A stretch of 33,732 nt of DNA from Nitrososphaeraceae archaeon (GTDB lineage: Archaea; Thermoproteota; Nitrososphaeria; Nitrososphaerales; Nitrososphaeraceae), in contig WHTU01000037.1 in assembly GCA_009377575.1 (NCBI GenBank), forward strand, positions 1 through 33,732. Reading direction: 5' to 3'. The stretch's first letter is position 1, and each line of letters opens with the position of its first letter. The position numbers were made by a program, and so were the translations under genes. Below, piece after piece: positions 7,688 through 31,955 of the stretch. The notes under the pieces were generated by a model. It saw only the letters and a list, made by a program, of their open reading frames with translations, did not search any database and was not told the DNA's origin.

Positions 7688-10507
7688 CTAAATGGTTTCT
7701 AACATTTTGGCTAAGTCCTGTCGACTCTCAAGGATATTAGACCAAGACGACAGGGAATTTCTTATATCTCTCTTCTCAGATATTTTATCTGGGACATTTA
7801 AGATTGTAAAATCTGTCGGTAGAATTTGATCTGGTGCATCCCACTTAAATGGCATAGAAATGGTAGCGAAAGCGGTAGGCCTCGCAGAAAAAACTGATGC
7901 AAGTGTCTTTCCTTTAGCATTTTGGTTGTGATCAAAGAAAATTTTACCTCGCCTTTTAGATGTATTCCAATCCATTGTAATCTTGTCAGGGTGTTCGCTA
8001 ACCAATGTTCTTCCGATGATTTCAGCGAAGCTTCTTGCTTGCTCATAATTGTAATCCGTAGAAACAGGTACAAAAATGTGGATTCCAGTTTTACCTGAGG
8101 TTTTGATGTAAGATTTGATATTCAATTTATCAAAAATTTCAGATTTTAGTAGCTGAGCCACTTCGACCGTTTTCATGAACGCTTTATGATTGTACTCCGG
8201 TTCCTGTGAAGCACCCGTTTCTAATCCAGAGTAAATATATGGATCTAAATCAAAGACAATAAAATCTGGATGATTGAGGCCACAGTTTTCTTCATCCAGT
8301 GCAATAGAATCCTTTAAACAGGCTTCATAATCAACAACTCTACTATACCATGGGTGTATTTCTATGCAGCCAAGATTTGCTAACCAGAGTAGTGTTTCCT
8401 TGTTATTGCAGATCAAATAGTTAGTCATTCTCCTTGAAGATTCGGAATAAAGCTTCACTGAATCTACAAATTCAGGTTTTTCCATATTCCAATTTTTTTG
8501 ATAAAAGTGCTTACCCATAATTCCGTCAGGATATCTGCTTAAGGACAATGGTCTGTCTTTAAGAAACGGGAGCAGGTAGTCACTTATTTTGTCATAATAT
8601 CTTATCAAGTCTCCTTTAGTTAGCTCAGGGTGAGATCGACTCTTTGGCCAAAATACCTTGTCTAGGTTAGAAAAGCTGTTCTCTATTCTTTTGGGTCTTG
8701 GTGTAGAAGAGGTATCAGGAGATAACGACTCTGACGGTGGTCGCGCGGAAGACGACTCCAGAGATGACGCTGATGATGGGATAGACAGCTCTTTGGAATT
8801 TTGCGGTTTTACATTCGAGAGCTGGTCCACATGCACAGTTTTTTCAAGTGTGCATTCTTGAGGCCTCTTGTCATCTCTAATCCTTAAAAATATGGGAGCT
8901 CTCATAATCTTGTCCTCTGTCCATCCATCAAACTTAACTTCGACTACTAGCTCCGGTCGTACCCATACTGGATCCCTATTGGTATATGGTATGTATCTAA
9001 CAGGAATTTCATCAGTCTTTATTTCTTGTAATTTGTTGAAAATCTGAACAATTTGTGGGAAGTCAAACCCACTTCCGGAGTGTCCAACGAAGACAAGTTC
9101 TCTACTGAATGCAGCTAGTAGCAAGGATCCAAAATAGCCCTTTCTATTACCTTCCCCCCTCGTGTATCCAATCACCACACAGTCCTGAGTCTGTATATTC
9201 TTGATCTTTAACCAGTCAATACTCCTTGCACCTTGCAAATACTTGCTATGTCTATTCTTTGCAATGATCCCTTCGAGGTTGAGTGCTTTGATATTTTCGA
9301 AAAGTTCTACGCCCTTTGCTTCAAAAGATTCAGATATCCTAATCACTCTGTCACCCTCTTGACTTGTATCTAGAACCGAGGACAGCAACTCTCGTCGTTC
9401 TGAGAATTCTAAACTTTCGAGACTTCTTCCATCTAAGTACAAAATTTCAAAAACATAGAACGTAGACGGAATTTCCTTAGAAAGGTATTGAATATCTAGA
9501 GCATTGTCTATATTCATTCTTCTTTGATGACTTTGAAAGTCTGGATGGCCTTGTTCGTTCAAAATCACTATCTCTCCATCAAGCACAATTGAATCATCGC
9601 AATTTACAATCGACGATGATACTAATGAATCGACAATCTCTGGATATCGATGACTAATTGATTTATTAGTTCTCGATTTGAGCTCAAGTATGTTTTTACT
9701 CTTGTGATAAAACAGAATGGCTCTTACTCCATCCCATTTGATTTCGAACTCCCAGTTCTTATCATTAAAGGGTTTATCACCTGGGGTAGAAAGCATAGGC
9801 CTTATCTTGTTCGGGAAATCAGACAAAGAGAGGCATTGTATTTTCTTTTTGGTAGAATGCAGAAGATCCGTCTCTTCATCCTTATTATTGCCGTGGACAG
9901 GATTAGAATCCACCTGAAGGCTAGAATATACACTGCTGGCGCTGTCTTTTTTTGTATAAGCATCTTTTTCAGTTTGAGATAACACAGAATCAGGCAAAGA
10001 TGACGTCAGGTCCTCTTCTGATGCGTACTCGTCATCATACTTTATCAAAAGCCATTGGTTTTCCAGGCTGGTTCTAATCAAAGAAAATTTACCGTTCACC
10101 TTATGCCCGTGTAAACTAAAAGTAATCTTTCCTTTATCGAACTGCTCATAAAACCTTTCACTAGATTTTTCTAATGTAAAGATACCTGTATCCCATACAA
10201 GAACTGTACCTGCACCATAGTTCCCCTCAGGGATTGTACCTTCAAAGAGAAGATAGTCTAATGGATGGTCTTCAGTAAGGATAGCAAGGCGTTTTATTCT
10301 AGGATTGAGAGAAAATCCTTTCGGTACGGCCCATGATTTGAGGACCCCATTTTCTGTTTCGAGCCTAAAGTCATAATGCAATCTCCTTGCATTATGCTTC
10401 TGAATGACAAAGTGTCTTCCGAAGTCCTTTCTTGTCGCATCACTGCGACTGCCAATAGGTTCAGGAGTATTCCCAAAGTTCCGTTTCCTATTATATTTTT
10501 CAAGCAT
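7688..10507 (-). CDS. ligD: Multifunctional DNA ligase D (phosphoesterase-ligase-polymerase)
   Basis: A 939-residue enzyme of non-homologous end joining, with all three LigD domains in the order phosphoesterase, ligase, polymerase. Residues 1-160 are the 3'-phosphoesterase (HYDFRLE at 44-50, EGTIPEGNYGAG). Residues 230-555 are the ATP-dependent ligase: the nucleotidyl Lys is K257 in EIKWDG, followed by SRTNK, LDGEIV, LEGIIAKN and DWLKIK. A Ser/Pro-rich linker spans about 570-607. Residues 612-939 are the primase-like polymerase: VFWP, FDLDP at 752-756 (metal-binding Asp 753 and 755), SGKTGIH. In bacteria LigD works with Ku; no Ku gene is in this window. Very few archaea have LigD, so acquisition from bacteria is likely. 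A TATA-like ATTTAAAAATA lies about 50 bases upstream of the ATG. Confidence 0.95.
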   Translation of the reverse strand: MLEKYNRKRNFGNTPEPIGSRSDATRKDFGRHFVIQKHNARRLHYDFRLETENGVLKSWAVPKGFSLNPRIKRLAILTEDHPLDYLLFEGTIPEGNYGAGTVLVWDTGIFTLEKSSERFYEQFDKGKITFSLHGHKVNGKFSLIRTSLENQWLLIKYDDEYASEEDLTSSLPDSVLSQTEKDAYTKKDSASSVYSSLQVDSNPVHGNNKDEETDLLHSTKKKIQCLSLSDFPNKIRPMLSTPGDKPFNDKNWEFEIKWDGVRAILFYHKSKNILELKSRTNKSISHRYPEIVDSLVSSSIVNCDDSIVLDGEIVILNEQGHPDFQSHQRRMNIDNALDIQYLSKEIPSTFYVFEILYLDGRSLESLEFSERRELLSSVLDTSQEGDRVIRISESFEAKGVELFENIKALNLEGIIAKNRHSKYLQGARSIDWLKIKNIQTQDCVVIGYTRGEGNRKGYFGSLLLAAFSRELVFVGHSGSGFDFPQIVQIFNKLQEIKTDEIPVRYIPYTNRDPVWVRPELVVEVKFDGWTEDKIMRAPIFLRIRDDKRPQECTLEKTVHVDQLSNVKPQNSKELSIPSSASSLESSSARPPSESLSPDTSSTPRPKRIENSFSNLDKVFWPKSRSHPELTKGDLIRYYDKISDYLLPFLKDRPLSLSRYPDGIMGKHFYQKNWNMEKPEFVDSVKLYSESSRRMTNYLICNNKETLLWLANLGCIEIHPWYSRVVDYEACLKDSIALDEENCGLNHPDFIVFDLDPYIYSGLETGASQEPEYNHKAFMKTVEVAQLLKSEIFDKLNIKSYIKTSGKTGIHIFVPVSTDYNYEQARSFAEIIGRTLVSEHPDKITMDWNTSKRRGKIFFDHNQNAKGKTLASVFSARPTAFATISMPFKWDAPDQILPTDFTILNVPDKISEKRDIRNSLSSWSNILESRQDLAKMLETI

Positions 10508-12743: not shown

Positions 12744-13709
12744 TTGGGATTAAGAATCGGATTCCACGTATCGATTTCTGGTGGAATTTCAAACTCTGTC
12801 GACAATGCTCTAAAGGAGGATTGTACTGCATTTCAGATATTCAGTAGAAATCCCCGAGGCTGGGCCGCTAAACCTTTGGATAATGAGGACGTCCTGCTGT
12901 TTAAGAACAAATTGGCAGGACGCTTAGATCGTAATGACTCAACGAAAAGTAGACAGGCGAAAACTTACCCCAGCGGCAGTGGAGAAAAGAGGGCTAACGA
13001 GAGATCTAAAATCGATAGAAATGCCATATATGTTCATATGCCTTATCTACCGAACCTGTCTTCACCCAATAAGATAATCTATGATCAGTCAGTGCAAGTC
13101 TTGATAGATGAACTCAATAGATGCGACGCTTTAGATATCCTCTACCTTGTCGTTCATCTAGGAAGTCACCAAGGTGAAGGAATTAAGAAGGGCGTTGATC
13201 AACTTGTATATGCGTGCTCTCATGCTATCGAGTCGACTTCGAGTGAAAACAATGTTTCAATTCTGTTGGAAAATAGTGCCGGCCAAAAAAATACAGTCGC
13301 CAGTGACTTTGGAGAGTTAAGAATAATACTTGATAAGCTGTATGATAATAATCCCAGGAGCAAGAAGAATAGATTCGGCGTATGCTTGGACACATGTCAT
13401 GCGTTCGCTTCAGGTTACGACCTTTCCTCAAGGGAAGCGGTTGATGATACGATGGATAAGTTCAACTCGCAAGTTGGATTAAAGTATCTCAAACTTATAC
13501 ATTTGAATGACTCGCGAGACAAGCTCTTCTCTCGCCGAGATAGGCATGAACATGTAGGACTTGGAGAGATAGGAACAGAAGGATTTAATGCATTCTTGAA
13601 ACATAAATCTCATGTAAATACGCCGCTAATAATGGAAACTCCAATGGATAACAGGCGAAGCAATTCCGATAACCTTGAGTTTGTTAAGGCTATCATTGAC
13701 AGCCCGTGA
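12744..13709 (+). CDS. nfo: Endonuclease IV (AP endonuclease)
   Basis: A 321-residue TIM-barrel enzyme of base excision repair that cuts 5' of abasic sites and trims damaged 3' ends. Family motifs are all visible: IGFHVSISGG, FQIFSRNPRGW (31-40), YVHMPYLPNL, VVHLGSHQGEG, LLENSAGQ, GVCLDTCHAFASGYD, LIHLNDSRD, RHEHVGLGEIG and IMETP. Probable zinc ligands are H98, H138, E176, D216, H219, H253, D266, H268 and E298. The start is TTG at 12744. It is about 35 residues longer than the E. coli enzyme because of a Lys/Arg/Ser-rich insertion at about 60-90. It is transcribed divergently from nuoB and belongs to the same repair theme as ligD. Confidence 0.93.
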   Translation: MGLRIGFHVSISGGISNSVDNALKEDCTAFQIFSRNPRGWAAKPLDNEDVLLFKNKLAGRLDRNDSTKSRQAKTYPSGSGEKRANERSKIDRNAIYVHMPYLPNLSSPNKIIYDQSVQVLIDELNRCDALDILYLVVHLGSHQGEGIKKGVDQLVYACSHAIESTSSENNVSILLENSAGQKNTVASDFGELRIILDKLYDNNPRSKKNRFGVCLDTCHAFASGYDLSSREAVDDTMDKFNSQVGLKYLKLIHLNDSRDKLFSRRDRHEHVGLGEIGTEGFNAFLKHKSHVNTPLIMETPMDNRRSNSDNLEFVKAIIDSP

Positions 13710-30965: not shown

Positions 30966-31955
30966 ATGAAATCGCAGCGTAATTCCCTTTCCTTATTGTA
31001 CCCAGACCACAAACAAGGTCATTTTACCGAGCAACAAAGAGTAGGTAATGAGATTGTCGAGGTCAGTAGATCTGCCTCACAGCCAATTTGTTCTTCATGT
31101 AGGTCAAAGGCGGTGATCTTCGATGATTTGACAGGAGAAATTGTTTGTACTCAATGTGGTATGGTTATTTCAGAAAGACAAATGACCTTGGAAAAGGCAT
31201 TCAAATCCAATGACCCAACGGGCATGCCGTTTTCTCTTGCTTATCCTGATAAGGGACTATCCACTGTAATCACCAATTTAAATACAGACGCGGCTGGTAC
31301 ATTATTGAATAACGATCAGATAACCAATGTAAACAAAATTAGATACTACAATAAACTTTCAGATAGTAAAAATCACACCAGAAACTTAAAGAATGCCTTT
31401 GTTGTTATGGCTACGATCAAAGACAAACTTACTCTTACAGACCCTATAATAGAAAGAGCAGCATATTATTATCGCAAAACTCTCGAGAGCAAGTTGATTA
31501 AAGGAAGATCTATCAAAGAAATGGTAGTTGCTTCAGTATATGCTGCATGTAAGGAAATGGACATCCCAAGAAGATTAGAAGATATATCCGTAGCAGCAAA
31601 CGCTGACAACATATTTGCCGGAAGATGTTTCAGGACTATTGCAAAAGAGTTGAGCATTAGTTCTTCAATTGTAGACGCAGCGCGCTATATGTCAAAGGTA
31701 GCAGCCAACGCTGATGTTAGCCAAAAGACATACAGAACTGCACTTGATATGTTGGACGTAGTAAAGAAGAATCCTATCTCTTATGGCAAGGATCCAAAAG
31801 CACTTGCAACTGCTTCTTTGTATGTCGCCTGTCTGGTTGAAGAACAAGACAAAGTTAGTCAAACAAGAGTAGCACAAGCCGGGGGAATAAGTGTAGTTAC
31901 GTTACGAAAAAGGGTTTTAGATATCTCAAAGCTATTCCCTGAGATACAGAAATAG
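30966..31955 (+). CDS. tfb: Transcription initiation factor TFB
   Basis: A 329-residue archaeal homologue of TFIIB that bridges TBP-bound promoter DNA and RNA polymerase. The N-terminal zinc ribbon has C42, C45, C61 and C64 (ICSSCRSKAV, EIVCTQCGMVISERQ). The B-reader/linker region follows (KAFKSNDPTGMPFSLAYPDK). Two cyclin repeats come next: about 130-220 (RAAYYYRKTLESKLIKGRSI) and about 225-325 (TASLYVACLVEEQDKVSQTR, ending SKLFPEIQK). Ammonia-oxidising archaea carry many TFB copies that specialise by condition. This solitary copy, with its own palindrome upstream, is probably one of the specialised ones. Confidence 0.95.
   Translation: MKSQRNSLSLLYPDHKQGHFTEQQRVGNEIVEVSRSASQPICSSCRSKAVIFDDLTGEIVCTQCGMVISERQMTLEKAFKSNDPTGMPFSLAYPDKGLSTVITNLNTDAAGTLLNNDQITNVNKIRYYNKLSDSKNHTRNLKNAFVVMATIKDKLTLTDPIIERAAYYYRKTLESKLIKGRSIKEMVVASVYAACKEMDIPRRLEDISVAANADNIFAGRCFRTIAKELSISSSIVDAARYMSKVAANADVSQKTYRTALDMLDVVKKNPISYGKDPKALATASLYVACLVEEQDKVSQTRVAQAGGISVVTLRKRVLDISKLFPEIQK

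Follow-up and report, generated by a model that had tools for sequence, protein, structure and literature searches.

A complete three-domain DNA ligase D in a Nitrososphaeraceae archaeon whose Ku genes lie on other contigs

In the archaeon Methanocella paludicola, the domains of the NHEJ machinery are separate proteins. Abby et al. 2020 (PMC7554672) name the M. paludicola NHEJ as the described full complex, and report that a complete NHEJ complex was acquired from bacteria in the ancestor of the Nitrososphaerales. PMC11936186 lists Ku for Nitrososphaera and Nitrosocosmicus, and PMC13006922 mentions NHEJ components in Arctic ammonia-oxidising archaea (AOA). The original prediction for the DNA described here, made from its sequence, held that archaeal NHEJ is known from very few lineages. 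In view of these three papers, this statement is partly out of date.

The window, that is, the whole stretch of DNA analysed, is the entire 33,732-bp contig C310 of genome G000, a 3.89-Mb assembly of 380 contigs from a soil archaeon, which is 99% complete. The genome carries archaeal amoA, and the contig carries a TFIIB gene (30966..31955, plus strand), which stands outside the NHEJ system and serves here as context that marks the contig as archaeal. Long stretches of the contig align with the congeners G003 and G004, and the named relatives with LigD are Nitrososphaeraceae. The combination of amoA, TFIIB and congener synteny indicates that the DNA comes from an ammonia-oxidising archaeon, as had been predicted, and that the contig is not contamination. 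A xylose-isomerase-like TIM barrel gene (Pfam AP_endonuc_2; 12744-13709) is located about 2 kb upstream of ligD.

The ligD gene lies at 7688..10507 on the minus strand, a strand which the original prediction did not state. The reading frame runs uninterrupted from an ATG at 10507 to a stop at 7688 and encodes 939 aa, with Pfam and NCBIfam matches in the domain order PE-LIG-POL; the complete three-domain LigD of 939 residues claimed at the outset is thus borne out. All Pfam matches are above the curated cut-offs: LigD_N at residues 36-145 (2e-39), DNA_ligase_A_M at 247-436 (2e-34), DNA_ligase_A_C at 455-547 (1e-20) and LigD_Prim-Pol at 630-914 (8e-74). The protein reaches 453 bits with the NCBIfam DNA ligase D model TIGR02776, whose cut-off is 373. 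On the minus strand, the 3′-phosphoesterase (PE) domain, assigned by Pfam, corresponds to 10073..10402 (residues 36-145), the ATP-dependent ligase (LIG) domain, consisting of NTase and OB parts and assigned by Pfam and Foldseek, to 8867..9769 (residues 247-547), and the primase-polymerase (POL) domain, assigned in the same way, to 7766..8620 (residues 630-914). The linker between PE and LIG (9818..10036, minus strand, residues 158-230) has low pLDDT and is poorly conserved in relatives, and the one between LIG and POL (8681..8842, minus strand, residues 556-609) has low pLDDT and is variable in the alignment. Both linkers are variable and predicted to be disordered, which agrees with a protein of three tethered domains. 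Confidence in the AlphaFold model is moderate (mean pLDDT 66.5, with PE poorly modelled), and its use is confined to the linkers and the LIG and POL folds.

The catalytic residues of the three domains align with those of solved structures. In PE, H38, H44 and D46 align with His42, His48 and Asp50 of PaLigD; in LIG, K257, within the motif EIKWDGVR, aligns with Lys481 of MtLigD; in POL, D753/D755, S804, H810 and R876 match Asp137/Asp139, Ser172, His178 and Arg244, and D859 also belongs to the aligned catalytic residues. The roles of the reference residues in the three domains are described in PMC8656161. All these positions are invariant in an alignment of 20 relatives, so the predicted integrity of the catalytic motifs stands for each domain. 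By sequence, PE matches the structures of P. aeruginosa LigD (2lj6, 3n9b) and LIG that of M. tuberculosis LigD (1vs0), while the matches of POL among solved structures comprise Prim-PolC, the M. paludicola NHEJ polymerase and LigD POL. Foldseek aligns LIG with 6nhz at a TM-score of 0.72, and POL with the Prim-PolC structure 6sa1 at 0.78 and the M. paludicola NHEJ polymerase 5dmu at 0.83, all by target length. The dN/dS of ligD against three congeners is 0.14-0.26, which indicates purifying selection. Judged by its sequence, the window protein is a conventional three-domain DNA ligase D, with PE, ATP-dependent LIG and POL in one chain, and is predicted to have ligase, polymerase and phosphoesterase activity. 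Before the DLDP motif, the POL domain of AOA LigDs carries a segment (8279-8320 in the window, residues 730-743) with two mostly conserved cysteines, C730 and C742; the bacterial LigDs compared do not show this segment. Two genomes of the same order without detectable Ku, G042 and G048, encode stand-alone PE domains of about 130 aa (L022 and L024, respectively).

No Ku is encoded on the window contig, neither in the 7.7 kb that flank LigD on one side nor in the 23 kb on its other side, which confirms the predicted lack of a neighbouring Ku over the whole 33,732-bp contig. A Ku family search of the genome finds two Ku genes, on contigs C359 (Ku1) and C3 (Ku2); of the two explanations offered beforehand, a Ku encoded elsewhere is the correct one. 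Ku2 is intact, with 290 aa and the C-terminal tail DLIAALKASL kept. In Ku1 (L001:1462-2178, identical to G000:C359:7621-8337), an in-frame TAA follows ...DISRYRD; beyond it 54 conserved residues continue in frame, so that Ku1 lacks the C-terminal tail containing DLIAALKASL. Removal of the C-terminus of M. tuberculosis Ku affects DNA and LigD binding (PMC9638933), and the region with this role is conserved in Ku2 and missing from Ku1. Between G000 and G004, nonsynonymous divergence in Ku1 amounts to 0.044 ahead of the stop and 0.191 beyond it; the corresponding parts of Ku2 give 0.048 and 0.070. This difference is a hint that constraint on the Ku1 tail is relaxed. Immediately upstream of Ku1, a protein kinase gene is likewise split into two frames, so decay of Ku1 or a sequence error in contig C359 is possible. 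It could be imagined that in this genus a single unlinked LigD has two diverged Ku paralogues as partners, with the shortened Ku1 (the core, lacking the C-terminal tail) joining Ku2 as heterodimer partner or modulator, which would be a prokaryotic counterpart of Ku70/80. Such an arrangement is very unlikely; given the split kinase neighbour, mere decay of Ku1 or a sequencing error may account for its shortening.

The two genes also co-occur in the family. Among 70 family genomes, 34 have both LigD and Ku, 23 have neither, eight have LigD only and five Ku only (Fisher p = 3e-7, a statistic which ignores shared ancestry). For the 39 genomes at least 90% complete, the corresponding counts are 23, 12, three and one, and of 14 genomes with a completeness of at least 98%, six have both and eight neither, with no exceptions. 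Ku and LigD are found on one contig in 21/34 genomes with both, mostly adjacent. Their orientation is convergent in genera g2 and g12 and in genome G024 and tandem in g11, and in G018 (genus g6) the genes are about 7 kb apart. Adjacency is frequent but not defining for two-component NHEJ, and in the window's genus ku and ligD are unlinked. The neighbours of the LigD locus are conserved across G000, G003 and G004, and those of the Ku2 locus across G000, G001 and G004, on contigs other than that of LigD. Since both loci keep their flanks across species, the separation is a stable arrangement at the genus level, and the lack of Ku near the window LigD reflects nothing more than gene order. The copy number of Ku looks dynamic in the family. 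Besides two full-length Ku genes, G030 has a frameshifted Ku pseudogene at C194 (L197:2180-2925).

A scan of named genomes places the nearest bacterial LigDs in the Chloroflexota (38-42% identity), followed by the Armatimonadota and Pseudomonadota. Of 397 genomes sampled from the phylum, only Nitrososphaeraceae exceed the full LigD cut-off. In unrooted trees the archaeal sequences form one clade, both for full-length LigD (SH-aLRT 100) and for Ku (SH-aLRT 100). The phylogeny of each domain, proposed as a check in the original prediction, gives a single archaeal clade for PE, LIG and POL (SH-aLRT 92, 99 and 99, also unrooted), and on these grounds a mosaic of domains is rejected. The POL domain contains an insertion, PYIYSGLE...EPEYN (8189..8242, minus strand, residues 756-773), whose pattern PYIYSGxE...EPE is common, with some variation, to the LigDs of Chloroflexota, Armatimonadota and Pseudomonadota. 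It was not found in the LigDs compared from Bacteroidota, Acidobacteriota and Planctomycetota, nor in the split NHEJ polymerases sampled elsewhere in the phylum. The shared insertion supports acquisition from bacteria. The reading that fits best is that LigD and Ku would have been acquired from bacteria by the ancestor of the archaeal lineage, with the direction taken from the distribution and the shared POL insertion, the trees being unrooted.

The locus very probably encodes one part of an ordinary two-component Ku and LigD NHEJ system, which was taken from bacteria together with Ku by the ancestor of the lineage and has been inherited since, with ku and ligD unlinked in this genus. The gene with its domains and motifs, the Ku genes, the co-occurrence, the synteny and the phylogeny are observed, and the enzymatic activity, the physical contact between Ku and LigD and the bacteria-to-archaea direction are deduced. 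Going by the protein families, a Ku dimer, most likely of Ku2 encoded on another contig, would bind and bridge the ends of the DNA and bring in LigD. Cleaning or trimming of the 3′ ends would fall to the PE domain and gap filling to the POL domain, and the LIG domain would seal the break with ATP.

The absence of Ku from the window contig could also be read as a sign of a LigD that needs no Ku here and relies on another end-binding protein. In the same direction point eight genomes without detectable Ku in their assemblies (G003, G006, G013, G017, G034, G466, G467 and G472), as well as the decay of Ku copies in some genomes (G006:C80, G030:C194). Against this, Ku is present in the window's own genome, and the genomes at least 98% complete have strictly both genes or neither. 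All eight LigD-only genomes are fragmented assemblies, of which G006 (93% complete) is the most complete. The Pfam Ku model gives no match in the genus g3 genomes G006 and G017. An AOA Ku profile, by comparison, detects in G006 a broken Ku (pseudogene) at C80 (L192:3221-3834), and two contigs of this genome, including the one with LigD, share at their ends a 238-bp repeat (98% identical) that encodes a Ku C-terminus (L194:7980-8217 and L195:7664-7901). This suggests that near-identical Ku copies broke the assembly, and the missing copies are most likely in assembly gaps. The broken Ku and the two contig ends thus lead to the rejection of a Ku-less LigD for G006; in G017 (75% complete), no Ku at all was found. 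As LigD and Ku co-occur across the family and adjoin in several related genera, the other end-binding protein offered as an option is unsupported, and an independence from Ku is highly improbable.

The likeness of POL to mycobacterial Prim-PolC raises the question of whether base-excision or gap repair, and not the joining of breaks, is the main task of LigD. In sequence, the solved structures closest to POL are indeed those of Prim-PolC (5op0/6sa0), and the Foldseek E-values are also best with 6sa1. However, the TM-score by target length is better for the NHEJ polymerase 5dmu, PE and LIG are fused to POL, and Ku co-occurs. The POL domain of a Chloroflexota LigD ranks the same structures first, so the Prim-PolC likeness looks like a trait of a LigD subgroup combined with an effect of which structures are solved; the POL domain of a Bacteroidota LigD, unlike the Chloroflexota one, does not show this ranking. 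The Prim-PolC-like role, very unlikely in our assessment, was rejected on the basis of the Chloroflexota ranking. The bacterial type of the LigD gene and the bacterial homologues in its trees would also suit a contig of bacterial contamination within an archaeal bin. This explanation has next to no probability and is refuted by the synteny with G003 and G004 over much of the contig and by the nesting of LigD in the Nitrososphaeraceae clade, along with TFIIB on the same contig; even the bacterial LigD nearest to that of the window is only 42% identical. The occurrence of this sequence on a bacterial contig, named beforehand as the observation that would overturn the prediction, was likewise not encountered, the nearest bacterial LigDs being 38-42% identical.

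The ordinary Ku and LigD system settles the puzzle of the isolated gene: as the whole-genome search shows, an archaeal LigD that stands alone on its contig does have a Ku. The Nitrososphaeraceae are a clear example of an NHEJ pathway that was probably acquired from bacteria and is kept or lost as a unit. The presence or absence of NHEJ among close relatives, several of them with complete genomes, provides a good setting to test its role in soil archaea.

Compared with the bacterial PE-LIG-POL LigDs, represented by P. aeruginosa LigD and by the closest homologues in Chloroflexota, Armatimonadota and Pseudomonadota, the window protein has the same domain order, catalytic residues and Ku partner, and it has the POL insertion in common with the Chloroflexota-group LigDs. 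It differs from the nearest of them in its identity of 38-42%, the AOA-specific POL segment (C730, C742) and the unlinked Ku of the genus. The NHEJ of M. paludicola, with split Pol, Ku, Lig and PE, has the same set of activities in an archaeon and a POL fold (5dmu) close to that described here, whereas in the window LigD the domains are fused into a single chain. Several other families of the phylum have split POL - Ku - (LIG+PE) operons (L155-L164), which encode the same activities, with Ku in the operon. In the trees of PE, LIG, POL and Ku, however, their sequences form clades of their own, and they do not have the POL insertion. In these operons PE follows LIG rather than preceding it, and in G425 (L161:4773-6179) a POL+PE fusion replaces LIG+PE. 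The Nitrososphaerales NHEJ of PMC7554672 and the Ku of PMC11936186 are treated at the level of presence in the main texts, to which the present analysis adds domain trees, gene order and the state of the Ku copies. In the main texts of these two papers and of PMC13006922, we found no domain-resolved trees, no use of the POL insertion to indicate origin, no unlinking at genus level and no mention of two Ku copies with one shortened. With the same lineage and the same inferred bacterial acquisition as in the main-text accounts of PMC7554672 and PMC11936186, the window gene belongs with these systems, and its LigD is a further member of the NHEJ family already published for the Nitrososphaerales.
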